From Sorex araneus (lineage: Eukaryota > Chordata > Mammalia > Eulipotyphla > Soricidae): a DNA stretch of 64,000 nucleotides. Position numbers and translations under genes: made by a program. Location: contig NC_073304.1 in assembly GCF_027595985.1 (NCBI RefSeq), positions 222,012,223 through 222,076,222 of the forward strand, in the 5' to 3' direction. Of this stretch, positions 3,428-48,098 are shown piece by piece; positions within the stretch are counted from its first letter, which is position 1, and the number at the start of each line of letters is the position of its first letter. The notes beneath the pieces are model-generated. The model saw only the letters and a program-made list of their open reading frames with translations. It was not told the origin of the DNA and did not search any database.

Positions 3428-3605
3428 TTTTTTTGGTTTTTTTTTTTTGGGGGGGTCACACCCGGCAATGCACAGGGGTTACTCCTGGCTCTTCAGGAAT
3501 TACCCCTGGCGGTGCTCAGGGGACCATATGGGATGCTGGGATTCGAACCCGGGTCGGCCGGGTGCAAGACAAACACCCTACCCGCTGTGCTATCGCTCCA
3601 GCCCC
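3428..3605 (-). repeat. SOR-type SINE
   Basis: Full-length, with TATAATTT on both flanks (3421-3428 and 3606-3613). Confidence 0.9.
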
Positions 3606-3671: not shown

Positions 3672-3854
3672 TTTTTTTTTTTTTTTTTTTGCTCTTTGGT
3701 CACACCCAACAATGCTCAGGGGTTTACTCCTGGCTCTACACTCAGGAATTACTCCTGGTAGTACTCAGGGAACCATATGGGACACCGGGGATTGAACCGG
3801 GATCGGCTGCATGCAAGGCAAATGCCCTACCCGCTGTGCTATTGCTCTGGCCCT
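3672..3854 (-). repeat. SOR-type SINE
   Basis: Full-length with a long T-tract at the left. The piece just right of it (3870-3920, GTGTGAGGCCCTAAGTTTGATTC) resembles the ID/tRNA-Ala-like elements described at 31576 and 41846. Confidence 0.88.
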
Positions 3855-3949
3855 CACATCATTTCTTGTCTTGCCTGTGTGAGGCCCTAAGTTTGATTCT
3901 AGGCACCACTAAAAATAAAAGAAAAAAGAAAAAAACAGAAAAAGAAGAG

Positions 3950-6826: not shown

Positions 6827-6990
6827 TTTTTTTTTGGGGGGGGGTCACACCCAGCAGTGCTCAGGGGTTGCTCCTGGCTCTGCACACAGGAATCACCTCT
6901 GGCAGTGCTCCGGAACCATATGGGACTGAACCCAGGTCGGCTGCCTTCAAGGCAAACGCCCTACCCGCTGTACTATGGCTCTGGCCTCAC
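6827..6990 (-). repeat. SOR-type SINE with target duplication
   Basis: ACCAGCAGCTTTT flanks both sides (from 6816 and from 6991). A short internal deletion removes part of GGATGCTGG. Confidence 0.9.
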
Positions 6991-23540: not shown

Positions 23541-24770
23541 AACAAAACGAAACAAAACCCAGAGGATGTTTGTCTGATTGTATTGCATTCAGATCTGCCT
23601 GGGTTTGCGGTGTGCGGGGACACCCTGACAGTCACCCTGACAGTGTCAAGTTTGCAGTGACATGAGGAATACCTCCTCTGACCTACGGCAGAAAGCTCAG
23701 AGGTGAACAGACAGACAGGAGGGAACTGAGAACAGAGTATTCCAGAACACTGGCAGCCCATGCACGAGCGCTGCTGTTCACGTTCCTGGTGGAGTCCCAG
23801 CAGGGCTCAGGGCCTCGCCCTGTGCTCTGGAACAGTGCTCATTGAGCTAAACAGTGCGCATCCTGCAAAGACCCCTCTGAGAATGCCGAGCACGGCTTCT
23901 GCTGCATTAAGTCAAAGAGTAAGTCAAACCATCCTGTCTACCATTTGATTTCTACTTCCATTTTTGGACCACACCTGGTGATGTCCAGGAACTACTCCCA
24001 GTTCAGTGCTCAGGGGACCATGTTGTGGGTAGGGCTGGAGCCACGGCATTCCAGTGCATGGTGCTCGCTCTCTCTTTCTAGTTCATGTCTGTGTATTTAA
24101 AGCTTCAGCAAGTCAGGGCCCTCTCAGCTGGGTGCGGGGGGGGGGGGGGACCCTGAGATCAGGTAGGGGAGCTCTGGAACCCTGGGGCCAGCAGCTGGAG
24201 CCTCTCCCCTTTTTGCCTTGCCTCTCCTGGGGAAGACGGGCAGAGACACCATCTGCGGCAGACAACCCACAAGGGAATAATAACTCATCCCATCAAGGTC
24301 TGCCTGTCTCCACGACTCTAGGCCAGAAACTATGGTCAAGTCGCATTTTGGACCAGGTGTCCTCAGGGAAAGTTCTGTCCCAGCTCCTCGAGAAAGGGGT
24401 GACTCACCAAGGAGCCCTAGGGTGCAGTAGGCAGGCACAGGAGGAATGGGAACCAGGAGGGCGGGGAGCGGGGGATACTGTCAGTTTGGCTAATACAGGG
24501 TTCACTGAGCCAGGATCCTCTGCTATAACGAAGGCCTGGGGTATTTCTTGACTTTGTCCTTCGCCCCCCGCCTCCTCCACCAAAGCAAGGCAGGGTGAGA
24601 GGGCAGAGGGCGCAGCCTCAGGACAGTGGAAAGGAGAAAGTGAGGCACCACCCAGATGTAGAAATTCAAGGTCCCACCCAGAGACTGGTGGACCCCCTCA
24701 GAAAAAGAAAAGCTACAGAAGAATCTATGAGGTTATGAGAAGACCATCAACAGTACAAGACTTTCTGAAG
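23541..24770. other. Intergenic, an old SINE fragment at 23955-24056, no gene
   Basis: GGACCACACCTGGTGATGTCC and GTGCTCAGGGGACCATG mark the old minus-strand SINE piece. The rest is unique, with a G-run at 24136-24149. Confidence 0.45.
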
Positions 24771-24774
24771 TTTG

Positions 24775-24950
24775 GGCCGGAGTGATAGTACAGTGGGGAG
24801 GGCATTTGTCTTACATGTAGCTCACCTGGATTCATCCCCCAGCATACCATATGGTCCCCTGAGCACCACCACCAGGCTTAATTCCTGAGTGCAGAGCCAG
24901 GAGAAACCCCTGAGCATCCTGGTGTGACCCCAAAAGAAAATAAACAAATA
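24775..24950 (+). repeat. SOR-type SINE
   Basis: Full-length with a small CAC insertion, ending in an AT-rich tail that merges with the simple repeat before 25000. Confidence 0.88.
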
Positions 24951-25002
24951 TATAAATATAAACATATTTATATAAATACATAAAATATATAAATATATCA
25001 TC

Positions 25003-25660
25003 ATCACCATCCTGTTGATCTTCAAATTTCTTGAATGATCTCAGTAATGTCTCCATTCGTCCTAGCCCTGAGATTTTAGAAGCCTCTCTCTGCTCGTCCT
25101 TCCCAATGATGCTGCATTGGAGGCTCTTTCAGGGTTAGGGGAATGAGACCCAGCTTGTTACTGGTTTTGGCATATTAATACACCATAAGGACCTTGCAAG
25201 GTTCTCCCATGTGGGCAGGAAAGTCCCGGTAGTTTGCAAGGTTCTCCCAAAGGAAGAAGTAGGCTATAAGATATCCGGGAGCTGGCTTTTAAGTCTCTGG
25301 ATGCTGGATGTTGATGGGATTACATGGAGCCAGGGGCAGTCCCTGAGTGTGACTGCCTAGCTACTGGGAAATGAGAAATCTGGGATGAGGAGGCCCAGCC
25401 CCGATCCCCGCAGGCTTGGAGGTCTCAGCCCCGGGTCCCACACACCTGGGTTCCTCTGCTGGTTCCTTCATGCATGAGGCTCATCTGAACGTGTGGAGAG
25501 GGGCCTTGAGCATGGCTGTGACTAGGCTCCAGAGGTCTTCGGCCATCGGGAACTCTGCTCGTTTCAGGGAGGGAAGCTGGAGCCCATCCCCTCCGAGGGG
25601 CCCCAGGGAAGACAGCCAGGTGCGCGGGCAAGAGACTGTTTATGTATATAAATCTTTATA
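25003..25660 (-). mobile_element. Repeat C (long retroposon with GAT-type tail)
   Basis: Reads from the (ATC) tail remnant and TCCTGTTGATC through GTCTCCATTCGTCCTAGCCC, ACTGGTTTTGGCATATT and GAGGTCTTCGGCC to GGGCAAGAGACTG. It is colinear with 30056-30746. No open frame of convincing length or known domain. The reverse-transcriptase source is unknown. Confidence 0.8.
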
Positions 25661-25922
25661 TATATAAATATATAAATAAAACCCAGATCACCTAGAGGTC
25701 TAGAGCTTCATGTCCTGGCCATTACTCATTATTTTGACTTTAAAATGTTAGTTCTTACACTGGGAGTGTGGTGGCAAGAGTGTGATTTCCTTCTTTCCTT
25801 CCTCTCCCTCCCTCCAAACCAGCAGAAGTAGCAGCAACCTCTGATCTCATTTCTAGCATCATAGAACTGTATTGCCTGTTTGAGAATTCATATAAATGGA
25901 ATCATATAATCAATACTGTCTG

Positions 25923-26098
25923 GTGCTGGGGTGAGAGTATAGCAGGTAGAGTGCTTGACTTCATGCGGCTGACCTGGGTTCCATCCCTGGTACACCATGT
26001 GATGGTCTCTTGTGCCTACCAGGAGTGAGCCCTGAGTTGGGAGTAAGCCCTGAGCATTGCTGGGTATGTCCCCATCCCCCCCCACACACACAAAAAAA
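25923..26098 (+). repeat. SOR-related SINE
   Basis: Moderately diverged, with CA-rich/A-rich tail at 26085-26098. Confidence 0.82.
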
Positions 26099-26105
26099 GT
26101 AAATA

Positions 26106-26281
26106 TTTTGTTTTTTGCTTTTTTGGGTCACACCCGGCGATGCACAGTGGTTACTCCTGGCTCTGCACTCAGGAATTACTCCTGGCAGTGCTCAGGGGAC
26201 CATATGGGATGCTGGGAATCGAACCCGGGTCAACCACATGCAAGGCAAATGCCCTACCCGCTGTGCTATTGCTCCAGCCCC
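26106..26281 (-). repeat. SOR-type SINE
   Basis: Full-length and close to the common sequence. With the preceding copy it forms a tail-to-tail inverted pair. Confidence 0.93.
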
Positions 26282-26486
26282 AAAAGTAATTTCTTGTACA
26301 GATTTCATTCTGCACAAAGCTTTTGAGATTTATTAATCTTGAGTCATGTATAAATAATTTGGTTTTGGTGGGGTAAAACGGTGTCACATCTATTTATTCT
26401 CTGTTGGTAAACAGTTGAACTATTTCCAGGTTAGGGGTAATATGAATAAAATGAACATGAATGTTTTAGGCTTTTGTTTTATTTAT

Positions 26487-26656
26487 TTTTTTGCTTTTTG
26501 GGTCGCACCTGGCGATGCACAGGGATTACTCCTGGCTGTGCACTCAGGAACCACCCCTGGCGGTGCTCAGGGGACCATATGGGATGCTGGGGATTCAAAC
26601 CCGGGTCAGCCGCGTGCAAGGCAAATGCCCTACCTGCTGTGCTATCACTCCAGCCC
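26487..26656 (-). repeat. SOR-type SINE
   Basis: Flanked by imperfect GCTTTTGTTTTATTTAT / GCGTTTGTTTTATTTTA, a probable mutated target duplication. Confidence 0.92.
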
Positions 26657-26819
26657 CAAGCGTTTGTTTTATTTTATCACACACCCTTCGTGCTCAGTGC
26701 TCCCTCTAGCTTGGTGCTCAGGGAGCCAGGGGGGCTGGGGAGGGATCCTTGGTCTCATGCTTGTGAAGCCTGTGTTTCAACTCACTGCGTTCTTTGTGAA
26801 AGCCTAAATTTATTTTTGT

Positions 26820-26974
26820 TTCTAGGCTCCACCTGCCTGTGTTGGGGGTACTCCTGAATCTGTGCTCAGGGATCATTCCTGGTAGGCTTGGAGGGCCATA
26901 TGTGGTGCCAGAGATTGTACCAGGGTTGGCCGTGTGCAAGGCAAGTGCCCAACTGAATACTATTGCTCCAGTCC
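26820..26974 (-). repeat. Diverged SOR-related SINE
   Basis: Older copy; CCATATGTGGTGCCAGAGATTG and GCTCCAGTCC remain. Confidence 0.75.
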
Positions 26975-27014
26975 ATCAAGCGTGAAATTAAAAAAAAATA
27001 ATTATTTTGAGAGG

Positions 27015-27385
27015 GTTGGTTCTGCAGTGCTCAGGACTTACTCCTGGCTCTGTGCTCAGGGATCACTTCTGGTGGCTCAGGGGACTTTATGGGGCACCAT
27101 ATCTCTTTATCCCCCCCATCAAGCCTCAATATTTAAGATTTCAGTGAACATGCATGTGTGTTTTCTTGGATAAATTGTCTAGGCATGAATGAATGAATCA
27201 TCAAATAAGTACATAATTAGCTGTTTTGTTTTGGGGCCACACCCAGAGGTGCCCATGGGCTACTCCCTGCTGGGTGCTGGTGCTGGGGTGAGTGTGGGAA
27301 TGGCGGGCGGGACCTGAGGTGTGGAGATCAAACCCAAGCCTCTGGCGTGCAGAGCCTGTCTCACCCTACGAGCTCGGTCTCAGGT
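27015..27385 (-). repeat. Two partial old SOR-related SINEs
   Basis: First piece 27015-27105 (CAGTGCTCAGGACTTACTCC), second about 27222-27385 (GGGGCCACACCCAGAGGTGCCC), both minus and truncated or rearranged. Confidence 0.6.
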
Positions 27386-27411
27386 GATTAACTTTTTATT
27401 TTAAAAAGTTT

Positions 27412-27690
27412 TGTTGTCCAGGGGTTAAGACACTTCCTGCGTGAGGCTGATGCTGGTTCTAGTCCCCCAGTCTCACACAGTCCGTGAGCACCACTCAAAA
27501 TGACCTTTGAACACCGAGCCAGGGATAATTCCTGAACACCACCAGGTGTGGCATGACCCAAAGTTCTCCCACACACACAGCAAAACTTTATTTTGTTATT
27601 GTTTGCTGTTCTGGGGATCAAATTTGTGGCTTCATACATCAAGGCGTGCACCTTACCACTGAACTGTCTCCCTGGTCCCATGACTAGTTT
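27412..27690. repeat. Old SOR-related SINEs, tail to tail
   Basis: A plus-strand copy (27412-27563, ends CCAGGTGTGGCATGACCCAAAG) faces a minus-strand fragment (about 27590-27685, ends GTCTCCCTGGTCCC). Confidence 0.55.
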
Positions 27691-27984
27691 TTTTCAGAAA
27701 CTGCTAAACTGTTTTCCAAAGTATTTATATAATCTATGAATGCGTAAGCTATGTCTCTGACAATAAAAATTGTCAATATTTTTTTATTTGGGTCATTGAT
27801 GGGTATTCAGTGGTACCTAACTGTGGACTTAATTCTCACTTCTCTAATGATTAGCGATTCTGAGGCTTTTCATGAGCTGCTTAAGTTTTTTTACCAATGC
27901 TTGTATTGAGTTCTCGTATCTTAAATTTAGTTTTCTATTTCTTTAGTATAGCTCAGGTATTATGGTTTGCAATAGTGTGAGCTG

Positions 27985-28160
27985 TTTGTAGTACTGAGGA
28001 CGCAGAGTGGGTAGGCACTTGCCTTGCACGTAGCTGACCTGGATTCCATCCCAGCACCTCATATGGTCCCCTGAGCCCCTCTAGGAGTGATCCCTGAGCT
28101 CAGAGCCAGGAGTAAGCCCTGACCACCACCCGCTGGGTATGACCCCCAGACAGATCAGAA
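27985..28160 (+). repeat. Diverged SOR-related SINE
   Basis: Complete but older; tail CCGCTGGGTATGACCCCC. Confidence 0.75.
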
Positions 28161-28169
28161 CAAGTGTAT

Positions 28170-28345
28170 AGTGTTTTTGATTTTGGGGTGCCACACCCAG
28201 CATTTCTCAGGGCTTACTCTCACTCAGGGGTCACTCCTGGCTGGTGGGATCAGAGGATCATACAGTGCCAGGGATTGAACTGGGTGGGCCCCATGCAAGG
28301 CAAGCGCCCTGCCCCCTGTACAATCTACTCATTTACTCAGCCCCA
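28170..28345 (-). repeat. Diverged SOR-related SINE
   Basis: Older member of the GGGGTGCCACACCCAGC type, facing the preceding copy tail to tail. Confidence 0.75.
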
Positions 28346-28689
28346 AAGTTTAGAGTACAGATGTACAACATTACTGCTCCCTCCTGTTGGTGTTTGTTGT
28401 TATTGAATTGTAGAAGTTCTTCATTTTTTCTAGATACAAGTAATTTGTCACATGTTGCAGTCACTTATTTCCTCTGGGACTGGTTTATTTAAGTTTTTTC
28501 CAGTGTTGCGGATTAAATCCAAGTCTCCTGAGGGCACTACCCTGAGTCATATCTTTTGCATGTTTACTCTTTTTTACTGAGGCCATTGAGTTAAACACAA
28601 GTTTGAAACATCTTACAAGGTTTGTTTTAGCAATTTTTTTCTTTTATAGTTGATCCATTTGGGGACTTCCATAAATACTTACTGTTCCC

Positions 28690-28838
28690 AGGGATAGAGA
28701 TAGTACAGTGTGTCGGGTGTTTGCCGTGCATGTGGCTGACCTGAGGTTGATCCCTGGCCCCCATGTGGTTCCCTGAGCCTGCCAGGAGTGATCCCTGAGT
28801 AGGAGGAAGTCCTGAGCACTGCCAGGTGTGACCCCAAT
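28690..28838 (+). repeat. Diverged SOR-related SINE
   Basis: GGGATAGAGATAGTACAGTGTG head; tail CTGCCAGGTGTGACCCC. Confidence 0.75.
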
Positions 28839-29016
28839 GCTCCTTCCTCCCTTCCTCCCCCAAAAAGAAAGAAAGAATGACTGCTACTCCAGAGTGTAAA
28901 CACTGCTCTGTTTTCTTTCAAATGATTTGAACTATTCACTGCTCTAGCTTTTATGCTGAGTATCTGACCCATGTTAAATTCACTCCTGTGAGTTGAGGTT
29001 CAAAGATCCCTCTGTG

Positions 29017-29232
29017 GAGCTGGAGTGATAGTACAGCAGGTAGGGCGTTTGCCTTGCACACCACTGACCAGAGTCCAATCCCCAGCACCCCATAATGGGC
29101 CCACGAGAACTGCCAGGAGTGATCCCTGAGCACGAGCCAGGAGTCAGCCCTGAGCACTGCAGGTTTGTTTGTTTGTTTGGGGGCCCTGGGCTGCAGATTT
29201 GGCCCCAAAATAAACACAAACAAACAAATAAA
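29017..29232 (+). repeat. SOR-related SINE with rearranged tail
   Basis: Normal head and middle. The tail contains a GTTT repeat and an extra segment (GGGGGCCCTGGGCTGCAG) before the A-rich end. Confidence 0.78.
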
Positions 29233-29382
29233 AAATCCTTCTGTTCCAACAGCATTTGTTAGAATAAATGTTTCTTTCCCCATTTAGTTACCTTTGTATC
29301 ATTGTTGAAACTCACTGGGGTATATGTATGGAGGGTTACATCTGGATTTACTATTTTGTCTGTTCTATGGACCTATTGATAC

Positions 29383-30055
29383 AATTTTTTTTAATTGTGT
29401 AGGACATACAAAACACAGCATTTAGCACTTTAAGCATTTTCTTTTTTTGGGGCGGAGGGTCACACCGGCCTTACACAGGGGTTACTCATGCACTCAGGAA
29501 TTACTCCTGTTGGTGCTCAGGGACCATATGGGATGCTGCGATTCGAACCCAGGTAACCCAGGTCGACCACGTGCAAGGCAAATGCCCTACCCGCTGTGCT
29601 ATTGCTCCAGCCCCAGCACGTTAAGCATTATCTTGGCTTCTATTCTGGGACACTACCGCTATTCCCCTTGTTACACAACCACCACCACCATAGAGCCAAG
29701 CTTTTTCATCTTCCCAAGATGAAACTCTGATGCCATTCAATAACTTCCACCTCCTGCCCGGAGTCCCTGGCAAGTCTGCTTTCACTCTGTGAATTTCACT
29801 ACTCAACGTACTTAATAAGGGAGACTGGAACAATGAACAGTGTCCTCAAGGTCAGTCCTGATGTGGCAGGTGTTTGAACTTTATTTCTTCTTGAGGCTGA
29901 ATAATGATCTATTGCATATGCAGACCAGCATTGGATTAGGTTGGGTTTAGTCTTTCCCTAATAACGAACGCTATTGCAAAGAAAAGCACCTTACTCGCTG
30001 TACTGTCACTCTGGCCCCTCAATTCTATTTTTGTGTACATACACATAATTTCATA
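29383..30055 (-). mobile_element. Ancient L1 3' end (second element)
   Basis: Antisense of a mammalian L1 3' region. Anchors are TTTTTTTTAATTGTGTAGGACAT, CAACCACCACCACCATAGAG, TTTTTCATCTTCCCAAGATG, AATTTCACTACTCAACG and TGAGGCTGAATAATG. The poly(A) side is at 29383, so the element runs to the left on the minus strand. Confidence 0.75.
29440..29613 (-). repeat. SOR-type SINE inserted in the ancient L1
   Basis: Flanked by AGCACTTTAAGCATT and AGCACGTTAAGCATT, a 15-base target duplication with one difference. Confidence 0.93.
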
Positions 30056-30064
30056 TATCATCAC

Positions 30065-30106
<42 letters not shown>

Positions 30107-30746
30107 GTTGATCATCGATTTTCTCGAGCAGTCTCAGTAACGTCTTCATTTGTCCTAGCCCTGAGATTTTAGCAGCCTCTCTTTATTTGTCCTTCCCAAT
30201 GGTGCCACATTGGAGGCTCTTTCAGGGTCAGGGGAATGAGACTCATCATTGTTACTGGTTTTGGCATATGGATATGGCACGGGGTGTGGGGGGTGCTTTC
30301 CAGGCTCTCTCATGTGGGCAGGAAACTCTCGGTAGCTAGCCAAGTTCTCCGAAAGGGAGAACTAGGCTATTAACTTCTGGGATCTTAGTTTTATAGTCTC
30401 TGGATGTTGGCCATTGATGGGATTACACGGCACTGGGGGCAGTTTCTGGGTGTGACCGCCTAGCTACTGGAAAATGGGGGATCTGGGCGGAAGAGGCCTA
30501 GTCCCGATCTGAGCAGGCCTAGAGATCTCAGTCCCGGGTCCTGCACACCTTGGGGGTTCCTTTACCGGTTACTTCATGCGTGAGGCTCATCCGAATGTGT
30601 GGAGAGGGGCCTTGAGCATGGCTGTGGCTGGGTTCTGGAGGTCTTCAGCTGCCAGGACTCTCTGCTCAGGGCGGGGAGGAAACTCAATGAACCCCCTCCA
30701 AGGGGCCCCGGTGAAGACAGGCAGGCGTGGGGGCTAGAGACTCTGC
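30056..30746 (-). mobile_element. Repeat C, longest copy, with (ATC)n tail
   Basis: Pure ATC repeats (about 30060-30103), then CCTGTTGATCATCGATTTTC and a body colinear with 25003-25660 and with the right part of 32704-33277, ending at GGGGCTAGAGACTC. A coding sequence is not evident. Confidence 0.82.
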
Positions 30747-30786
30747 CATATATATATATACATATATATGTATATATACATATATA
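30747..30786. repeat. (TA)n microsatellite
   Basis: TATATA/CATATA repeats between repeat C and the following SINE. Confidence 0.9.
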
Positions 30787-31045
30787 TATGGATTGGAGCC
30801 ATAACACAGAGAGTAGGGCGTTTGCCTTGCACGAGGCCGACTTGGGTTCAATTCTTCTGTCCCTCTCAGAGAGCCTGGCAAGCTACTGAGAGTATCCCAC
30901 CCGCATGGCAGAACCTGGCAGGCTACCCATGGCGTATTTGATATGCCAAAAACAGTAACAACAAGTCTCACAATGGAGATGTTACTGGTGCCTGCTCCAG
31001 CAAATCGATGAACAATGGGATGACCATGCTACAGTGCTATATATA
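30787..31045 (+). repeat. SINE family B (tRNA head, repeat-C-like body)
   Basis: The head GGAGCCATAACACAGAGAGTAGGGCGTTTGCC is shared with SOR. From about 30860 the body is different (TGTCCCTCTCAGAGAGCCTGG, GATATGCCAAAAACAGTAAC, GCAAATCGATGAACAATGGG). It ends in CAGTGCTATATA repeats and not in poly(A). Confidence 0.82.
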
Positions 31046-31098
31046 TAGTGCTATATATAGTGCTATAGTGCTATATATATATATATATACATATATAT
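31046..31098. repeat. (TA)n / AGTGCTATATA microsatellite
   Basis: Continuation of the non-poly(A) tail of the preceding SINE into pure TA repeats, abutting the next repeat C copy. Confidence 0.85.
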
Positions 31099-31331
31099 AA
31101 TCATCATGATCATCCCATTGATCGTTGATTTTCTCGAGTGGTCTCAGTAACATCTCCATTTGTCCTAGCCTGAGATTTTAGAAGTCTCTCTTTACTCGTC
31201 CTTCCCAACAGTGCCACATTGGAGGCTCTTTTAGGTTCAGGAGAATGAGACCCATCATTGTTACTGGTTTTGGCATATGAATATGCCACAGGGAGCTTGC
31301 CAGGCTCTCCCATGCAGGCAGGAAACTATGT
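31099..31331 (-). mobile_element. Repeat C, 5'-truncated copy
   Basis: Contains only the 3' third (ATCATGATCATCCCATTGATCG to CATGCAGGCAGGAAAC), as expected from incomplete reverse transcription. Confidence 0.8.
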
Positions 31332-31442
31332 ATGAGTATTTTCTATGTGCAAAAATTATTTTGCTTTTACTACTGATGATATAAATTTTATTCAAATAAT
31401 ACTGCTAGAAACTTTGCTTCATTCATCAAGAGCTCAGACTAA

Positions 31443-31562
31443 TTGTATGACTGAAACCCAACCATGAACAACTTTTAACTGTGTATCTCAGGTGATTCAA
31501 CAAAAAAATTTTTTTTATATATCTCTATCTATCTATTTATCTTTCTATCTATCTATCTATAT
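31443..31562 (+). mobile_element. Minimal L1 3'-end insertion
   Basis: About 70 bases of L1 3' end (TTGTATGACTGAAACCCAAC, CATGAACAACTTTTAACTG, GGTGATTCAAC) followed by an A/T tail with TCTA repeats. Flanked by GAGCTCAGACTAA at 31430-31442 and 31563-31575. A severely 5'-truncated L1. Confidence 0.8.
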
Positions 31563-31575
31563 GAGCTCAGACTAA

Positions 31576-31665
31576 GAATTGGGTTGTGACTCAGAGGTAG
31601 AGCACTTGTCTTGCATGTGTGAGGCCCTAGATGTGATCTTCACACAAACACCAAGAAAATAAACT
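31576..31665 (+). repeat. ID-like (tRNA-Ala-like) SINE remnant
   Basis: GTTGTGACTCAGAGGTAGAGCACTTGTC and TGCATGTGTGAGGCCCTAG match a tRNA-Ala-type SINE head distinct from the SOR head. A second copy is at 41846. Confidence 0.6.
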
Positions 31666-31966
31666 TTACAGAACATAAAATCTTATGTGACTATTAAAGT
31701 CAAAGTAATCATAAATCTCTCCCTAAAAAGTCTAAATTTCTAAGGAAAAGTGAGTGGTAGAACCTTTTTTTCCCCCCAGTTTTTGGACAATACTTAGTAG
31801 TAATTTGGGGCTACACCCAACTGTGTACTCTGGTCACTACCAGTTGTGCTAAGGGAACCTGCCACATGCAAGTCAAGTGCCTTAACCCTGGTACTATCTC
31901 TCTAATCCTAAAACAACTTTCTAAAGTTCTTCAAGTCTCAGGCTCATGTGGGTTTAGCAACACATT

Positions 31967-32145
31967 CTCTTTTTTTTTTTTTCCTTTTAGGTCGCACCTG
32001 GTGATGCACAGGGATTACTCCTGGCCGTGCACTCAGGAACTACCCCTGGCAGTACTCAGGGGACCATATGGGATGCTGGAATTCAAACCCGGGTTAGCCG
32101 CGTGCAAGGCAAACGCCCTACCCACTGTGCTATCACTCCAGCCCC
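31967..32145 (-). repeat. SOR-type SINE
   Basis: Flanked by AGCAACACATT at 31956-31966 and 32146-32156. Confidence 0.94.
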
Positions 32146-32156
32146 AGCAACACATT

Positions 32157-32690
32157 ATCTTATCCATTCATTCTTTTGCCTTTTATCAATTTGATTCATA
32201 AATATGACCCCTTCCTTCTAATTTGTAATTATTTTTGTATAGCTATTGCAATAAGTAACATTTTAAAAATGCAAATAGAAAAAAGGTAGATTACTCAAGT
32301 TAAATAACTGAACTCTGGAACATTTTAAAAGTTCTCACCCATATAAATCAGATTAAAAGGTTATCCAAGAATGATTTTAATTTACTTTGAAATGAAGACT
32401 TTCCCTTTCACACACTTGGATAAAACAGATAAGCTCTCCAAAGCATTATACAGTGAGGATTTAACACCAGAGAAGACAATTCTTTATCTCACAGACATTC
32501 TGTGCATTGAAGAATGGGGGGCTTGCTACTCTCTTTGACCACCTACTAATGCCAATGGCATCCCTCCAGCCTCTGTGACAACCTAAATATGCCAAATCAT
32601 TCCCAAAGACTTCAAGGAGTAAGTATTAGTCCAGATGAAACCCACTGTACCGAAATTTTCCAGAGACCTGTATCCTAAATATAGTTGCAT
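32157..32690. other. AT-rich intergenic sequence, no gene seen
   Basis: Possibly old LINE or unique DNA. No exon or family is recognised with confidence. Confidence 0.4.
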
Positions 32691-32703
32691 ATTAAGAGAA
32701 CCT

Positions 32704-33277
32704 TGAGCATGGCTGTGGCTAGGCTCCAGAGGTCTTCGGCCGCCAGGAGCTCTGCTCGGGGCGGGGAGGGAAGCTGGAGCCCATCCCCTCCAAGGGGCCC
32801 CGGGGAAGACAGCCAGGCGCGCGGACCAGAGACGCTCAGCCATACTCAAGGCCCCTCTCCACATGTTCGGACAAGCCTCACACATGAAGGTACTGGCAGA
32901 GGAACCCAGGTGTGTGGGACCTGGGGCTGAGACCTCCAAGCCTGCTTGGATCAGGACTGGGCCTCCTCTGCCCAGATTTCGGAGGCTGCATGATATTTTA
33001 TAGCCTACTTCTCCTCTGGGAGAACCTGAAAAACTACTGGGAGTTTCCAGCCCACATGGGAGAGCCTCGCAAGGTCCCATGGAGTACTAATATGCCAAAA
33101 CCAGTAGCAAGCTGGGGCTCATTCCCCTGCCCCTGAAAGAGCCTCCAATGCAGTATCATTAGGAAGGATGTGTAGAGAGGCTTCTAAAATCTCGGCTAGG
33201 ACGAACGGAGACGTTACTGAGACCGCTCGAGAAAATTGACGATCAACGGAATGATGATGATGATGATGATGATGATG
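32704..33277 (+). mobile_element. Repeat C with 5' inversion and 13-bp target duplication
   Basis: The left part (32704 to about 32838) is in minus orientation (TGAGCATGGCTGTGGCTAGG to GCGGACCAGAGAC). The rest is plus, starting CTCAAGGCCCCTCTCC and ending in (GAT)n at 33250-33277. ATTAAGAGAACCT flanks it at 32691-32703 and 33278-33290. The inversion junction is as produced by twin priming. Confidence 0.85.
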
Positions 33278-33290
33278 ATTAAGAGAACCT

Positions 33291-33506
33291 AAGGGGCCGG
33301 AGCGATAGCACAGCGGGTAGGGCGTTTGCCTTGCATGCGGCCGACCCAGGTTCGATCCCCGGCATCCCATATGGTTCCCCAAGCATCGCCAGGAGTAACT
33401 CCTGAGTGCAAAGCCAGGAGTAACCCCTGAGCATCGCTGGGTGTGACCCAAAAAGCCAAAAAAAAAAAAAAAAGAAAGTGAAATAAATATAAATTTAAAA
33501 AAAAAA
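33291..33506 (+). repeat. SOR-type SINE inserted at the repeat C target duplication
   Basis: Full-length with intact head. AAGAGAACCTAA is repeated at 33281-33292 and 33507-33518. Confidence 0.93.
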
Positions 33507-33536
33507 AAGAGAACCTAAAAAAAGGTAAATTTAATT

Positions 33537-33641
33537 GTAGCACTGTAGCACTGTCATCTCGTTGTTCATCGATTTGCTCGAGCAGGCATCAGTAACGTCT
33601 CCATTGTGAGACTCGTTGTCACTGTTTTGGCATATCGAAAG
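33537..33641 (-). repeat. SINE family B, 3'-end fragment
   Basis: TGTAGCACTGTAGCACTGTC (tail repeats), then CTCGTTGTTCATCGATTTGC, CATTGTGAGACTCGTTG, TTTTGGCATATCGAAAG. 5'-truncated. Confidence 0.8.
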
Positions 33642-33956
33642 GTAGTTTTTTCCAATCAGTACTGTGGAACTTTAGTATGCTGGAAGTCTTTCACGTGGAT
33701 GGCCTTAGTTTGGGTCATTATATTAAATATATACACAATTATGAGTTATCTTGTCGTTATTGAAGAAAGCCATAGTGGCATCCTGTCCAGCATGAGGAAG
33801 TGGGTGTGGCAGACAGTGGAGAGTAGAGTCCAGGTTTTTGCCCTAAGATGAAAGGTTTGGCAACGGTAAACTTGTCACAGTGAAAATGGTTTTCCTGAAA
33901 TATGCAAGATTTCTGCTTTGTTGGTGTGGCACAGCTAAGGCTGTAGACCTTCAATG
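33642..33956. other. Intergenic, no gene or named repeat
   Basis: Possibly old LINE-derived (TGGATGGCCTTAGTTTGG); not assigned. Confidence 0.35.
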
Positions 33957-33965
33957 GTCATTTCA

Positions 33966-34151
33966 GGGGCTGGAGTGACAGCACAGCAGGTAGGGCATTT
34001 GCCTTGCACACGGCAGACCCAGGTTCAATTCCCAGCATCCCATATGGTCCCCTGAGCACGGCCAGGGGTAATTCCTGAGTTCAGAGCCAGGAATAACCCC
34101 TGTGCATCGCCGGGTGTGACCCAAAAAGCAAAAAAAAAAAAAAAAAAAAAA
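33966..34151 (+). repeat. SOR-type SINE
   Basis: Long pure A-tail; GTCATTTCA at 33957-33965 and 34152-34160. Confidence 0.94.
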
Positions 34152-34282
34152 GTCATTTCAGCCTGAGGATTCTCCATATGGAGATTGATGGAACAGATAC
34201 TTTGAAACACTATGAACCAGTACATCATTGTAGTTTGATTACTGAAAGTTCTGGTAATAAAATATGCCGTTCAGTTAGCAGA

Positions 34283-34317
34283 TATATATATTATATATAT
34301 ATAAGTATATATTTATA
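34283..34317. repeat. (TA)n microsatellite
   Basis: Tail-adjacent TATATA run left of the next SINE. Confidence 0.85.
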
Positions 34318-34487
34318 TGCTTTTTAGGTTATACCCGGCAATGCTCAGGGATCACTTACTCCTGGCTCTACACTCAGCAATTACTCCTAGAAGTGCTCGG
34401 GGGACCATATGGGGTGCCGGGATTGAACCTGTGTTGGCCATGTGCAAGGCAAATGCCCTACCTGCTGTACTATTGCTCTGGCCCCAC
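34318..34487 (-). repeat. SOR-type SINE
   Basis: Nearly full-length, starting at GCTTTTTAGGTTATACCCGGC. Confidence 0.9.
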
Positions 34488-34717
34488 TCTGTTGAATATT
34501 AGCATGTTTATTATTGCCCATTTGTAAATCTTTGGAGAAATGTTTATTCCAGTCATTCATCCATCAGTGGGCATTTGGGTTGTCTCCACGCTGAGCTGTT
34601 GTGAATAAAATCACTATAAATATAAGTGTACTGTTGGAGTATTTGCCTTCTGTTTGATTATATGTTTGAGTACTTGCTTTCAAGGTATTTGAGTTTGTAC
34701 ACAGAAATAGAATTAAG

Positions 34718-34895
34718 GGGCCAGAGTGAGTATAGCAGGTAAGGTGCTTTCCTTGCATGCAGCCAACCCGGGTTCGATCCCCAGCATCCCATATGTCCGC
34801 CCCACCCCCCAGCACCACCAGGAGTAATTCCCGAATGCAGAGCCAGGAGAAATCCCTGAGCACCACTGGGTTTGGTCCAACACCCCCCTCCCCCA
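34718..34895 (+). repeat. SOR-type SINE
   Basis: Slightly diverged, with CCGCCCCACCCCCC insertion and a C-rich tail. Confidence 0.88.
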
Positions 34896-35137
34896 GAAAA
34901 AAAGAAATAAAATTAAAGATCACATGGTAATTCTGTTTTTATTTGGTAATCACACATGACAATTTCATTTTCTGAGGGACTGCCTTGCTATTTATCGCCC
35001 AAACCTATGGCAGCCCTTAGTTAATTATTTCTTTATGGTAAATCTTAGAATTCAGATCAAGGTATTCAACTTTGTCCGTTCTGAAAATAATCAGAACTAT
35101 TCTATGTTGTTTGCATTCCTATTAAGATATGAGATTC

Positions 35138-35321
35138 GGGGCTGGAGCAATAGTACAGTGGGTAGGGCGTTTGCCTTGCACGCGGCTGATCCAGGTTCGA
35201 TTCCCAGCAACCCATATGGTCCTCTGAGCACTGCCAGTGGTGATTCCTGAGTGCAGAGCCAGGAGTAACCTCTGTGCATTGCCAGGTGTGACCCATAAAG
35301 CAAAAAAAAAAAATAAGCAAA
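35138..35321 (+). repeat. SOR-type SINE
   Basis: AAGATATGAGATTC at 35124-35137 and 35322-35335 is a perfect 14-base target duplication. Confidence 0.95.
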
Positions 35322-35339
35322 AAGATATGAGATTCACCT

Positions 35340-35620
35340 TGGCCTGGTAGATAGCTTGGTGGGCTGAAGTGAGTGAGGGTAGGAGCCCTCCGCGTGGTCC
35401 CTGGCACCAGACTCTCTGCCTGTCCCACCCATCCCCATTCCTCCCCACTCCCCTTCCCAGCTCTCAGAAGGCCCCTGACTGAGCATGCTGGGTATGGGTA
35501 TGACCCTAAAATGAACAACAACAAAAATTTGGGTTGGGGACACACCTGGCTGTGATTAGGGTTTACTTACTTCTGGTGGCTCTGGACTCAGGGATTAATC
35601 CTCCCTACCTCTTCAGCCCA
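35340..35620. repeat. Old SOR-related remnants
   Basis: Diverged plus copy at about 35340-35510 (tail GCTGGGTATGGGTATGACCC) and a short minus fragment at 35526-35620 (GGGGACACACCTGGCTG). Confidence 0.5.
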
Positions 35621-35695
35621 CAAAACACATTTTTAAGTTCACCTTGTTAATTTCTACATTTCTCACACTCCCCTACCCCAGAATATCCCCTGAGT

Positions 35696-35860
35696 GTTTT
35701 GGAGGGATCCATACCCAGCTATGTTCAAGGGTAACTCCTGGCTCTGAACTCAGGAATTACTCCTGGTGGTGCTGGGGGACCATATGGGGTGCTGGGGATC
35801 GAACCCAGGTCTGCCGTGTGCAAGGCAAACTCCCTACTGACTGTACTATCGCTCCAGCCC
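35696..35860 (-). repeat. SOR-related SINE
   Basis: Complete except for the T-tract; ends CTATCGCTCCAGCCC. Confidence 0.88.
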
Positions 35861-36261
35861 AACCTCTGTGTGTTTCGACTGGATTCCATTGCATGAGTCA
35901 CAGATCAGTTTAGAGACTGTCCTCCTTCACCTCATTGCTCTTCTAGCACACAAGCACGGTATGTGCCAATCTCTTGACAGTTCTTCCAGGGATATTCTAT
36001 ATTTTCAGTGTACAACCTTATATGTAATTGTTAAATGTGCCTGAATATACACACACATTTTGGGTGGCATTATCAATGGCATTACTAACCTTTTTGTTTT
36101 TCCATCTCTACCAGTACGTAGAAATATTACTGATTTTTCTCTGTTAACTGTATTTCCTGAGACTAATTTACTTGAGGGCATTTCTGTAGATTCCTTGTGA
36201 TTTTCTGTTATATTATCAAATGCAGAACTTAAAACTGGTACAATTATTTATTTATTTATTT

Positions 36262-36435
36262 TTATTTTTTATTTATTTAATTTTTTTTGCTTTTTGGGTC
36301 ATACCTGGTGATGCACAGGGGTTACTCCTGGCTCTACACTCAGGAATTACCCCTGGCCGTGCTCAGGGGACCATATGGGATGCTGGGAATCGAACCCGGG
36401 CTGGCCACGTGCAAGGCAAACGCCCTACCTGCCCC
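36262..36435 (-). repeat. SOR-type SINE, head truncated
   Basis: Typical body from GCTTTTTGGGTCATACC; stops at CGCCCTACCTGCC, before the head end. Confidence 0.9.
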
Positions 36436-36463
36436 ACAATTTTTTTTTAATTTGGACTATACT

Positions 36464-36636
36464 TGGGGCTGGAGCAATAGCACAGTGGGTAGGGTGTTTG
36501 CCTTGCATGCGGCCGACCAGAGTTCTCTTCCCAGCCCCATATGGTTCCCTGAGCACAGACAGGGGTAATTCCTGAGTGCAGAGCCAGGAATAACCCCGGT
36601 GCATTGCCAGGTGTGACCCAAAAAGCAAAAAAAAAA
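36464..36636 (+). repeat. SOR-type SINE nested in an older one
   Basis: AATTTGGACTATAC at 36449-36462 and 36637-36650. The following sequence (36650-36798) is itself an older minus-strand SINE. Confidence 0.94.
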
Positions 36637-36649
36637 AATTTGGACTATA

Positions 36650-36798
36650 CCTGCCAGTGCTCGGGGCTTACTTCTGGCTCTGTGCTCTGGGATCTTCCTG
36701 GCTGGTTCAGGGAATCGTATGGGATGCTGGGGATCAAACCCAGGTCAGGCATGTGTTCAAGGCAAATGCCCTGTCCACTGTACTATCACTCAGCCTCC
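36650..36798 (-). repeat. Older SOR-related SINE
   Basis: GCCAGTGCTCGGGGCTTACTTC to CTATCACTCAGCC. Confidence 0.82.
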
Positions 36799-37166
36799 AA
36801 AATTAGCACAATTTGCTTCAATCTCTTCCATTTGTAAGCTTTTATTTCTTTTCCTTGCCTTACTGCCCTGGCTACTGGCAACAGAAAATTGTTGAATAGA
36901 AATGATTAGAGCAAATTGTTAAAGAGAAAGTGATTGTCTCCTTGTCTTGTTCTGAATCTTTAGGGGAAAGCATTTCATTTTCACCTTGAAGTATAATGTT
37001 AGTATTGCTTTTCAGATGCTTTTTATGGTTTGAAAACATTTCCTACTATACCTGGGTTCCTGAGCATTTTTATTATGAATGGATTTTGTTGTGGGATTTT
37101 TTTTTGCATTTATTGAAGTAGCAATTTTCAATCTGTTAAAATAGGTAGTTACAATGATGCAATATT

Positions 37167-37340
37167 TGGGGATGGAGCATAGTACAGAGGGTAGGGCATT
37201 TGCCTTGCATGTGGCTGACCCGGTTCGATTCCCAGCATCCCATATGGTCCCCTGAGCACCGCCAGGGGTAATTCCTGAGTGCAGAGCCAGGAGTAACCCC
37301 TGTGGATTGCCGGGTGTGACCCTCCCCCCCAACAAGAACC
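37167..37340 (+). repeat. SOR-type SINE
   Basis: One-base losses in the head (GATGGAGCATAGTACAG). Flanked by CAATGATGCAATAT / CAATGATACAACAT. Confidence 0.9.
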
Positions 37341-37398
37341 CCCAATGATACAACATCTACTGAAATAACATTTTTAATCTGTTAAAATAGGTAGTAAC

Positions 37399-37576
37399 GG
37401 GGCTGGAGTGATAGCACAGCGGGTAGGGTGTTTGCCTTGCACTCGGCCAACCCGGGTTCGATTCCCAGCATCCCATATGGTCCTCTGAGCACCACCAGGG
37501 GTGATTCCTGAGTGCAGAGCCAGGAGTAACCCCTGTGCATTGCCAAGTGTGACCCAAAAAGCAAAAAAATAAAAAT
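37399..37576 (+). repeat. SOR-type SINE
   Basis: Perfect target duplication AAAATAGGTAGTAAC at 37384-37398 and 37577-37591. Confidence 0.95.
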
Positions 37577-37587
37577 AAAATAGGTAG

Positions 37588-37846
37588 TAACTCCTGGCTC
37601 TGCACTCAGAGATTACGGTCTTGGGGGACCATATGGGATACCAGGGATTAAACCCATGCCAGCCGTGTGCAAGGCAAGTGCTTTAGGGGCTGGAGCGATA
37701 GCACAGTGGGTAGGGCGTTTGCCTTGCACGCGGCCGACCCGGGTTCGAATCCCAGCATCCCATATGGTCCCCTGAGCACCGCCAGGAGTAATTCCTGAGT
37801 GTAGAACCAGGAGTAACTCCTGTGCATCGCCGGGTGTGACCCAAAA

Positions 37847-37881
<35 letters not shown>

Positions 37882-37917
37882 AGTGCTTTACCCCCTGTGC
37901 TATTTCTCCAGCCTCCT
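37588..37917 (-). repeat. SOR-related SINE split by a younger copy
   Basis: Host pieces are 37588-37685 and 37891-37917. The younger plus-strand SINE sits between them. Confidence 0.85.
37686..37875 (+). repeat. SOR-type SINE nested in a SINE
   Basis: AAGGCAAGTGCTTTA at 37671-37685 and 37876-37890; the long A-tail suggests a young insertion. Confidence 0.96.
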
Positions 37918-37921
37918 ATTT

Positions 37922-38093
37922 GCTTTTTTTTTCCCATTTTTGGGTCACACCCAGCGATGCCCAGGGGTTACTCCTGGCTCTGCACTCAGGAATTATTCCT
38001 GGCAGTGCTCGGGAACCGTATAGGATGCTGGGGATCGAACCCGGCTCGGCCGTGTGCAAGGCAAGCGCCCTACCCCCTGTGCTATTGCTCCTT
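37922..38093 (-). repeat. SOR-type SINE
   Basis: Full-length with a modest number of substitutions. Confidence 0.92.
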
Positions 38094-38109
38094 CCCTCCA
38101 TTTGTTATT

Positions 38110-38272
38110 TTGCAGGGGGCACACCCTAGGGTGCTTAGGGCTTACTCCTGGCTCTGTGTTCAGGGGTCAGTCCTGGTGGGGCTCAGGGAACTATACATGG
38201 TGCCAGGGATAGAACCTGGATGAGCTGCAGGCAAGGCAAATGACCTACCTCCAATACTATCTCTCCAGTCCC
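38110..38272 (-). repeat. Older SOR-related SINE
   Basis: GGGGGCACACCCTAGGGTGC to CTCTCCAGTCCCC. Confidence 0.85.
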
Positions 38273-38534
38273 CCATTTGCTACTTTTTTTTTCTTTTACT
38301 GAATCACCATGTGGAAAGTTACAAAGTTTTCAGGTTTAAGTCTCAGTTATACAATGCTCGAACACCCATCCCTTCACCAATGCACATATTCCATCACCAA
38401 GAATCACAGTATAGCTCCACCCTGCCCCCCCACATCCCCAGCCCCCCACCCCGCCTGTGTAACTGATAAATTTCACTTTACTTTCACTTTACTTTGATTA
38501 CATTCAATATTTCAACACAAAACTCAATATTATT

Positions 38535-38690
38535 TATTTATTTATTTTTTTGCTTTTTGGGTCACACCTGCGATGCACAGGGAATCACCCCTGGCCATGC
38601 TCAGGGGACCATATGGGATGCTGGGATTTGAACCCGGGTCGGCCGCGTGCAAGGCAAACGCCCTACCCGCTGTGCTATCTCTCCAGCCCC
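38535..38690 (-). repeat. SOR-type SINE in the L1 3' UTR
   Basis: AAAACTCAATATTATT at 38519-38534 and 38691-38706. An internal deletion removes part of the TTACTCCTGGCTCTGCACTCA block. Confidence 0.95.
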
Positions 38691-39259
38691 AAAACTCAAT
38701 ATTATTGTTTGGAGTTTCTCCCCCCTAAAGTCGGACCTGCTGAAAAGGAAGCATTTGATAATTTGTTTTCCATTACAGAGAATGAAGAGATATGAGGTCA
38801 AGTGGCCGCACTAGTGGCCGCATGGTTTTGGATTTCTGTATTTTAGTATTTTAGTAACTAAGTCCAGAGAAATATCTGCCAGAAATTGCATCATTGCAAA
38901 CTTGTACTTCTCGGCTATTTTATAGTCCACATATGAGTGCCATTTTTCTATATCTGTCTCTTTCTTTCTGACTCATTTCACTCAACATGATACTTTCCAT
39001 GTTGATCCACTTATATGCAAATTTCATGACTTCATGTTTTCTGGCAGCTACATAGTATTCCATTGTGTAGATGTACCAGAGTTTCTTTAACCAGTCATCT
39101 GTTTTTGGGCACTCTGTTTTTTTCCAGATTGTGGCTATTGTAAACAGTGCTGCAATGAACATAGAAATGCAGATGTCATCTCTACTATACCTTTTTGCCT
39201 CTCCAGGATATATTCCCAGGAGTGGTATTGCTGGGTCAAATGGAAGCTCAATTTCTAAT

Positions 39260-39435
39260 CTTTTTGTTTGTTTTTTGGGTCACACCCAGCGATGCACAGG
39301 GGTTACTCCTGGCTCATGCACTCAGGAAGTACTCCTGGCGGTGCTTGGGGGACCATATGGGATGCTGGGATTTGAACCCGGGTCAGCTGCGTGCAAGGCA
39401 GACGACCTACCTGCTATGCTATTGCTCCAGCCCCA
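39260..39435 (-). repeat. SOR-type SINE in L1 ORF2
   Basis: TCAATTTCTAAT at 39248-39259 and 39436-39447; it splits the L1 reading frame. Confidence 0.95.
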
Positions 39436-39628
39436 TCAATTTCTAATTTTTTGAGAATCATCCATATTGTTTTCCAAAAGGGCTGAACCAGTCGGCATTC
39501 CCACCAGCAGTGAAGGAGAGTCCCTTTCTCCCCACATCTATGCCAATACCGGTTGCTTTTGTTTTTTGGGATGTGGGCCAGTCTCTGTGGTGTGAGATGA
39601 TATCTCATTTGCTACTTTTAAAGCTTTC

Positions 39629-40282
39629 TTGGGTAGCATGTTTTTGTTTGTTTCTGCAGTGTCTGGGATGGTGTGCAAGGCAAGTGCTCTGCTGAGCTAG
39701 TCTTTGGCCGAGTCACTCAACTTATTCCATCCCGAGCCACTGGCACCGCTGCATTAGATCTTTTCTCATCTTCTGATGTTTGTTTGTCAGCTTGTCCTGT
39801 GCTAACCACACATGGTCTATGTGTCGTTTATTATCAACGTGGAGAGGGGAGGAAATGAAGGGGAAGGAAGAACACTTGAGGTTGGGCAAAAGCTGCTGGA
39901 TATTGGCGTTTATTATCGTGAGGGAGGAACAGGTTCTGATTTGGGCTTAAGACGCCAGTGGAGGCTCCCTGGCGGGTGGCCAGATAAGAGATGTTGCCAT
40001 CACTCCCTCTCAGGACGCGACGGGGGCAGTGGGCAGAATGGGTGTATCTGGCTGAGATAGAGCAGCTGGGAAGCCGGCCGAGTTACCAGAGTGTGCAGGG
40101 TGGAGGGAAAAGATAGCTCAGGAAAGACCAACTTTGAGGAGGCCCCCGGGGAGGTGATAGGAAGGAGAACCTGCCAAGAAGATAGGGAAGCAACCATCAA
40201 GGGGGGGGGGGGGCGGAGAATGAAGTATCGCCATGTTGACAAATGCTACAGGGTCATGGGGGTGGCAGTTCCTTCAGATTTG
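39629..40282. other. Unique intergenic sequence, no gene seen
   Basis: A short SINE-like fragment occurs near 39668-39700 (GGTGTGCAAGGCAAGTGC). A G-run is at 40201-40213. No supported exon. Confidence 0.45.
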
Positions 40283-40533
40283 GTGTCACTGTCACTGTCA
40301 TCCCGTTGCTCATCGATTTGCTCGTGCGGGCACCAGTAACGTCTCCATTGTGAGACTTGTTGTTACTGTTTTTGGCATATCAAATACACCACGGGTAGCT
40401 TGCCAGGCTCTGCCATGTGGGCGAGATAGTCTCGGTAGCTTGCCGGGCTCTCCGAGAGGGGAGGAGGAATCGAACCCGGGTCGGCCATGTGCAAGGCAAA
40501 CGCCCTACCCGCTGTGCTATTGCTCTAGCCCTA
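40283..40533 (-). repeat. SINE family B, full-length
   Basis: From the (TCACTG)n tail through CGTTGCTCATCGATTTGCTC, TCTCCATTGTGAGACTTG, GGCATATCAAATACACC and GTAGCTTGCCGGGCTCTCCG to the SOR-like head (GAATCGAACCCGGGTCGGCC to GCTCTAGCCC). The best copy for defining the family. Confidence 0.87.
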
Positions 40534-40572
40534 CTTACTTACTTACTTACAGATTTGGTGACCAAATAAATT

Positions 40573-47711: not shown

Positions 47712-47882
47712 TTCTTTTTTTTGCTTTTTGAGTCACACCTGGCAATGCACATGAGTTACTCCTGGCTCTGCACTCAGAAATTGCTCCTGGCGGTGCTCAG
47801 GAGACCATATGGGATGCTGAAAATCGAACCCAGGTCAGCTACGTGCAAGGCAAACGCCCTACCCACTGTGCTATCACTCCAG
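47712..47882 (-). repeat. SOR-type SINE
   Basis: Full-length (GCTTTTTGAGTCACACC to CTATCACTCCAG). Confidence 0.93.
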
Positions 47883-47918: not shown

Positions 47919-48098
47919 GGGTCTGGAGTGATAGCACAGCGGGTAGGGCGTTTGCCTTGCACGCGGCCGACCCGGGTTCCATTCCCAGCATCCCATATGG
48001 TCCCCTGAGCACCGCCAGGGGTAATTTCTGAGTGCAGAGCCAGGAGTAACCCCTGTGCATCTCCGGGTGTGACCCAAAAAGCAAAAAAAAAAAAGAAG
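47919..48098 (+). repeat. SOR-type SINE, first of a tandem pair
   Basis: Preceded by AAGAATAACCAGTGA (47904-47918) and followed by AAGAATAAACAGTGA (48099-48113). Confidence 0.94.

Follow-up and report, generated by a model that had tools for sequence, protein, structure and literature searches.

A 64,000-nucleotide (nt) stretch of the Sorex araneus genome (assembly GCF_027595985.1, contig NC_073304.1, positions 222,012,223 to 222,076,222 of the forward strand; the whole of it is called the window here) contains copies of two interspersed repeats, referred to as B and C. B is very probably a short interspersed element (SINE) in which a tRNA-derived head precedes a body and tail left by internal deletion of a long interspersed element (LINE) of the RTE type, and C a derivative built in like fashion. 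Copies in the window were located by local BLAST and profile searches, and their coordinates in the whole stretch are collected in Table 1. One LINE copy, L053, serves as coordinate reference for the joints in B and C.

Composition of B and C

In sequence terms, B is best described as a SOR head followed by about 110 nt of the LINE 5' region and about 60 nt of the LINE 3' end. Positions 65-174 of consensus B correspond to L053 839-948 (87%) and positions 183-246 to L053 3851-3916 (85%); with a second LINE copy, L056, positions 116-175 align to 900-959 at 95%. The joint 948|3851 recurs in both near-full-length B copies of the window (30860-31024 and 40467-40284). The last ~60 nt of B coincide with the end of the LINE open reading frame (ORF) and the beginning of its short repeat tail, and the B consensus, translated by hand in the LINE frame, gives WRRYWCPLEQIDEQRDDS without a stop. 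At the other end, the first 66 nt of B are 95.5% identical to the head of the SOR consensus, for which we used a sequence that we take to represent the family, and contain GGTTCGATTCC, presumably the B-box. The SOR body and the A-rich SOR tail are absent from B: the alignment to SOR covers 1-66 and one further match of 11 nt (E 0.66). A head resembling RNA polymerase III promoters, target-site duplications (TSDs) and a 3' end common to a partner LINE mark B as a probable tRNA-derived SINE.

C can be read in the same way, as a head (H) of ~385 nt, ~190 nt of LINE 5' region and ~55 nt of LINE 3' end, or, on L053, head + 837-1033 + 3846-3902. Consensus C 386-576 corresponds to L053 845-1033 (82%), 580-632 to L053 3846-3899 (81%), and 433-576 to L056 902-1046 (84%). 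Its joints in the window are 1033|3846 (30358-30100) and 1039|3846 (33002-33247).

How similar are the two families to each other? The bodies of two B copies (B1, B2) score 67.0 and 72.3 bits against a C profile, compared with best scores of 0.5 and -0.9 bits among 500 dinucleotide shuffles of each, and reversed B bodies gave no match to this profile. Since the profile was made from C copies alone, the score is not circular. Between the consensus sequences, 87 of 102 and then 41 of 50 positions are identical; the spacing between these blocks is 10 nt in B and 98 nt in C, which makes B 88 nt shorter, and the 88 nt by which C exceeds B are LINE 5' region that C has retained. A chance resemblance or low-complexity artefact, for which nothing more than the AT-rich and ATG simple repeats near some copies could be invoked, is practically excluded by the shuffle controls, the thousands of genomic candidates and the TSDs.

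Much of an initial annotation made from the letters of the window alone is thereby upheld: B and C were recovered as repeat families, with thousands of genomic candidates for both, B carries the SOR-type head proposed for it, its bodies match C beyond chance, and the segment of about 90 bases said to be missing from B measures 88 nt in the consensus alignment. That annotation also derived the B body from the 3' end of a longer repeat. This holds for the last ~60 nt, which match the LINE 3' end, and fails for the preceding ~110 nt, which match the LINE 5' region; what had been called the 3' portion of C likewise resolves into two LINE pieces, a 5' region and a 3' end.

Could C be the direct parent of B, a C-type RNA having lost ~88 nt and exchanged its head for a SOR head? 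The joints speak for such a descent, as the 3' breakpoints of the two families lie ~5 nt apart (L053 3851 and 3846) in a LINE of ~3 kb and their 5' regions start almost at the same place (839 versus 845, or 837 in some C copies), though the LINE extends further upstream. The same breakpoints are predicted equally well by one bipartite RTE ancestor, or by a minimal 3' recognition sequence that limits deletions, and B is in places nearer to the LINE (95% over 60 nt, L056) than to C (85% over 102 nt). Direct descent is thus a tentative reading, short of an even chance; the near-identity of the 3' joints suggests either that both families share a bipartite ancestor or that the 3' recognition sequence restricts where the joint can fall, and C counts as a sibling of B or a possible intermediate rather than a demonstrated parent.

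Both families are abundant. In the genome (2.41 Gb, 65 contigs), first-look searches gave 5777 candidates for B and 10692 for C, 40 of which were scored in each case. Among the 40 best C matches, 36 start within the first 8 bases and end at or beyond base 625 of the 632-base query. A random sample of 20 stretches of 10 kb at arbitrary places (200 kb) contained 16 B copies above 100 bits and three full-length or nearly full-length C copies. Extrapolated from these 200 kb, the genome would hold, very roughly, 2 x 10^5 copies of B and 4 x 10^4 full-length copies of C, with a counting error that is large for B and especially so for C. Mean Kimura two-parameter divergence from the family consensus is 0.133 for B (17 copies), 0.107 for C (5 copies) and 0.202 for SOR (117 near-complete copies in the window and the 200 kb sampled), whose tails are A runs.

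Table 1. Copies of B and C, their LINE-derived parts, TSDs and tRNA predictions in the window.
Feature	Position	Strand	Remarks
SINE B, near full length	30787-31045	+	SOR head ~30794-30852
B 30787-31045, RTE 5' region	30860-30963	+	L053 845-948
B 30787-31045, RTE 3' end	30972-31024	+	L053 3851-3903; tail of ACAGTGCT-like repeats
SINE B, full length	40283-40533	-	SOR head, then RTE 5' region, RTE 3' end, (ACAGTG)n tail
B 40283-40533, RTE 5' region	40467-40358	-	L053 839-948
B 40283-40533, RTE 3' end	40349-40284	-	L053 3851-3918
TSD CAGATTTGGTG, left copy, B 40283-40533	40275-40285	.	overlaps tail end
TSD CAGATTTGGTG, right copy, B 40283-40533	40550-40560	.	TACT run between TSD and head
SINE B fragment, 5'-truncated	33538-33640	-	B profile 149-252
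B fragment 33538-33640, 3' end	33605-33552	-	L053 3851-3904; 3' block alone matched
Repeat C, full length	25009-25640	-	C profile 2-630; head H at 5' end
C 25009-25640, RTE 5' region	25265-25066	-	L053 837-1033
Repeat C, full length	30102-30745	-	head H at 5' end; (GAT)n tail ~30060-30101
C 30102-30745, RTE 5' region	30358-30159	-	L053 845-1033
C 30102-30745, RTE 3' end	30155-30100	-	L053 3846-3902
Repeat C, 5'-truncated	31112-31330	-	RTE 5' region 31322-31171, L053 881-1030; 5' block alone significant
Repeat C with 5' inversion	~32697-33277	+	(GAT)n tail
C 32697-33277, inverted 5' head part	~32693-32834	-	H 3-143; then H from 118 onward (+)
C 32697-33277, RTE 5' region	33002-33206	+	L053 837-1039
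C 32697-33277, RTE 3' end	33199-33247	+	L053 3846-3895
TSD ATTAAGAGAACCT, left copy, C 32697-33277	32691-32703	.
TSD ATTAAGAGAACCT, right copy, C 32697-33277	33278-33290	.	directly 3' of (GAT)n tail
ARAGORN calls	2175-2247, 3528-3600, 6912-6981, 26579-26652, 32068-32140
ARAGORN calls	37404-37476, 37691-37763, 38613-38685, 47809-47881, 47924-47996

The probable partner LINE and the copying of B

The LINE itself was recognised in one of the random stretches, L034, which holds a LINE 3' part with a broken reverse transcriptase (RT) frame containing KRGVRQGDTISPKLFSA and a C-terminus ending RYWRPLEQIEDQRDDK; the stop follows inside a short ACAAGTGAT repeat. The DNA that encodes this C-terminus recurs as the end of both B and C. 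By BLAST (33-78 nt), the LINE 3' end was found at 28 of 28 loci fetched as B matches, at 8 of 19 other random loci, and at six places in the window (three in B, three in C). The LINE as query yielded 15,906 first-look candidates in the genome; the 40 that were scored comprise L034 itself and 39 at 86-88% identity. Eight copies were fetched (L049-L056), of which L053 and L056 are nearly full length. In Pfam searches L053 matches RVT_1 (E 2.6e-30) and, slightly below the curated cut-off (22.9 versus 24.5 bits), Exo_endo_phos (E 8.2e-5); L056 matches RVT_1 (E 2.8e-22). An endonuclease and an RT in one element of ~3 kb, with an ORF that ends at a short repeat tail, is the architecture of the RTE clade, to which these predicted domains would assign the LINE. 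The suggestion that the B tail is common to a non-L1 LINE has thus found its element, an RTE-type LINE with an RT in the same genome. The view of C as that LINE does not survive: C is a non-autonomous derivative of ~630 bp without an RT coding region, and 36 of the 40 best matches described above have this same extent. Being ~60 nt long, the 3' end that the elements share offers a compact candidate for the signal that RTE proteins recognise.

A search with L053 700-1400 returned 39 further LINE copies that are continuous across the region used by B and C. On L053, 21 of them start at 758-760, one at 776 and 17 at 798-812. Of five upstream pieces that were fetched, L068, L071 and L072 resemble one another along ~390-430 nt (74-85% in pairwise comparison), which suggests a 5' untranslated region (UTR) longer than L053 shows; L069 and L070 share merely ~40-70 nt with the other pieces.

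TSDs and tails bear on how B and C were inserted. A word of at least 9 nt is common to both flanks in 18 of 51 B copies, as opposed to 2.5% with swapped flanks, and a word of at least 12 nt in 9 of 51, as opposed to 0.3%. Of the 18 words, the one flanking the window copy at 30790 is simple AT sequence, and an AT microsatellite surrounds the B copy at 30787-31045. Words of at least 9 nt flank 3 of 11 C copies (control 1.6%), one of the three being AT sequence, and 2 of 8 LINE copies, a count without control. The C copy at 32697-33277 has its first ~140 nt in inverted orientation; the inverted and the direct part have ~25 nt of the head in common, and one TSD encloses both. Twin priming during target-primed reverse transcription yields 5' inversions of this kind, and an inversion inside a single TSD is as expected from it.

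Of 54 B copies listed, 52 extend to the 3' end, and all of these finish in ACAGTG-type repeats without poly(A), as judged by eye. The terminal repeats are (GAT)n or related to it in C copies and of the CAAGTGA type in the RTE copies. Across L002-L028 and L029-L048, B tails are of at least three types (ACAGTGCT, ACAGTGAT and ACAGTG repeats), which suggests subfamilies.

Might L1 mobilise B, as it does SOR, with the RTE sequence as passive cargo? L1 is abundant (13,300 first-look candidates for PF02994), an L1-like RT, its clade judged by eye, is present in L032, and SOR copies that bear A-rich tails are frequent. Against this stand the repeats found in place of poly(A) at the B ends and the comparable short terminal repeats that RTE copies carry, so that mobilisation by L1 is very unlikely. 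Most likely, B uses the enzyme of the RTE LINE for its copying. Beyond what is directly observed (composition, junctions, the common extent of C, TSDs, the 5' inversion, tails other than A and the abundance of the LINE), the process can be pictured as follows. RNA polymerase III would transcribe B from its SOR-type head; the RTE protein would recognise the last ~60 nt of the B RNA, which are shared with the LINE, nick the target DNA and copy the RNA by target-primed reverse transcription. B itself may have arisen when the RT switched between two templates, a SOR-like RNA and a bipartite RTE RNA.

Several observations weigh against this account of B and C. Direct BLAST with the LINE piece gave no significant match to the 3' end of three C copies, those at window position 25009, in L032 and in L036; the 3' end of the window copy (25009-25640) was found by the C profile and is not significant against L053 itself. 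L056 is without an endonuclease match in Pfam, and stops or frameshifts interrupt both near-full-length LINE copies inspected, L053 and L056. In six frames of window positions 25-40 kb no RT domain was found, by a method that did detect the RT of L053. The B tail matches the eight LINE copies at 82-90% (8 of 8) and the C tail at 80-84% (7 of 8), too imperfect a fit to point to a source subfamily. The C head, lastly, is a weak match to the LINE 5' UTR (12.1 bits).

B and C both allow a conserved hairpin (CAGTAAC...GTTACTG) to be drawn between their 5' and 3' pieces. Its stability is nothing unusual (folding energy z -0.52 to -1.64), and windows from inside the LINE also pair with the 3' end, with 21 of 53 and 20 of 53 at or below the real energy. 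The hairpin was therefore rejected as evidence of function.

The head of C

What is the ~385-nt head of C? We lean towards a diverged unit of a tandem LINE 5' UTR. A profile of the LINE 5' UTR scores the 12.1 bits mentioned above against the C head, and none of 1000 shuffles scored above 5.4. L048 has two matches to the C head (to 183-370 with 116 bits and to 7-175 with 38 bits) that overlap LINE 5' UTR sequence (44.9 bits, E 5.1e-13) and run on into it. L063 has two successive head units, the first covering 79-367 and the second belonging to a full C, and L058 shows part of such an arrangement. It is these three observations, the profile match, the overlap in L048 and the tandem units, on which our reading of the head is based.

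In the alternative, C would be a composite and its head would have nothing to do with the LINE, being for example an L1 5'-UTR unit or a satellite. The low score of the profile match favours a composite, as do the related units in tandem in L048. On the other side, none of the 1000 shuffles reaches that score, the head-like units of L048 continue into LINE 5' UTR sequence, and the regions upstream of four L1 ORF1 copies, from 150 listed ORF1 places, contain no convincing match to the head (best E 0.016, at the edge of a truncated C copy). We consider a composite unlikely, and an L1 5'-UTR unit, with convincing matches in none of these four regions, is not supported as a candidate. A unit of the LINE 5' UTR remains the favoured source of the head.

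A free element ending near head position 367 was also considered and rejected. Of seven matches that stop at 364-367, six (L057-L062) align to C in one piece, continuously from position 1 to 610-633; L063, set apart from these seven, is the locus of a neighbouring head fragment. The C copies in L057, L058, L060 and L062 exceed the consensus length by ~19-26 nt; the additional bases lie near head position 367 and may mark a subfamily.

L048 (4839-5840 and 1667-2429) contains two diverged tandem units of the C-head type, ~385 bp apart and 74.7% alike, and a block upstream of them is also repeated twice. These units could be what is left of a 5' UTR, either that of the LINE or that of a related family.

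Related families, origin of the LINE and surroundings of the window

The architecture of B and C is already known from other animals. A study of hagfish SINEs with bipartite RTE sequence is reportedly by Kojima, 2020. In the sections of PMC7245038 that concern them, the hagfish families SINE2-1_EBu, SINE2-9/10_EBu and SINE1-1_EBu are described as carrying an RTE 5' UTR joined to an RTE 3' end, and bipartite non-autonomous RTE families are called common, at times gaining noncoding-RNA heads. An RTE 5'-region piece joined to a 3'-end piece is likewise what B and C contain. Like B, the hagfish SINEs, as described, combine an RNA-gene head, part of an RTE 5' UTR and an RTE 3' end; unlike B, they belong to another host and to other RTE families, and the head of B is SOR. 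The hagfish families carry parts of 7SL or UCON3, for which the window was checked through Rfam alone; at the gathering threshold no Rfam family matched there.

A survey that lists mammalian pairs of RTE elements and SINEs is attributed, by report, to Ohshima, 2013. Table 1 of PMC3747384 has Bov-tA and Bov-A2 of ruminants paired with BovB, a LINE described as horizontally transferred (PMC5857283); 'shrew' and 'Sorex' do not occur in the main text of PMC3747384. As with B and C, Bov-tA and Bov-A2 are a tRNA-headed SINE and a relative with the BovB 5' end, both bearing the LINE 3' tail. They differ from B in that their partner is BovB, and the likeness drawn here is one of described architecture. 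The SOR SINE of shrews, treated in part of PMC11240701, has in common with B the head discussed above. Titles and abstracts searched contained neither B nor C nor a shrew RTE-SINE pair, a scope without Repbase, Dfam and subscription journals, so that the families may already be named.

RTE1_Sar is reported as highly abundant in Sorex araneus and as shared by horizontal transfer with parasitic nematodes, nine species (Dunemann and Wasmuth 2019, PMC6542046); the terms 'SINE' and 'non-autonomous' have no occurrence in the main text of that paper. The LINE found here is, like RTE1_Sar as described, an abundant RTE element of a shrew, and we infer that the two are probably the same. LINE copies are 57-86% identical, over matched pieces, to a nematode-type RTE ORF (775 residues at 67% for L056), a similarity that is a lead rather than a test of this identity or of a transfer. 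For one LINE frame, a search of the PDB returned no match. Did a nematode-derived LINE in a shrew ancestor found both C and a SINE of ~2 x 10^5 copies, the LINE and C having a promoter of tandem 5'-UTR units? We see the chances as evenly balanced. Promoters of tandem 5'-UTR units are the layout of mouse L1; we know of none in RTE elements.

The kind of element is known; what makes it of interest is the B/LINE pair, together with its size and the probability that a transferred LINE is involved. A very common SINE now has a probable partner LINE, and both families are seen to be assembled from pieces of two LINE ends, the same in each. Should RTE1_Sar be this LINE, the reported transfer between worm and mammal had effects far beyond the LINE's own copies, and B and C insertions would help to date its arrival in shrews and could serve as markers of Soricidae phylogeny. 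Should the nematode origin hold, a large share of the SINE load of this mammal would depend on a worm-derived reverse transcriptase. A pattern scan for B/C tails in viral contigs and genome contigs found no foreign copies, and a ruminant BovB-like pattern had no match in viral contigs.

Elsewhere in the window, ARAGORN predicts ten tRNAs, seven of them 'Ala'. As all ten overlap SOR-type head matches, they are probably SINE artefacts rather than tRNA genes. The minus strand at ~38290-39610 presumably holds the 3' part of an L1-like element, split by SOR copies, as judged by eye; Pfam raised no flag at this stretch. Ten long open frames from the window flanks (220-456 residues) had no Pfam match. 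Positions 24001-40000, in which the B and C copies lie, have a GC content of 45-48%, compared with 56-70% in the flanking 4-kb steps.

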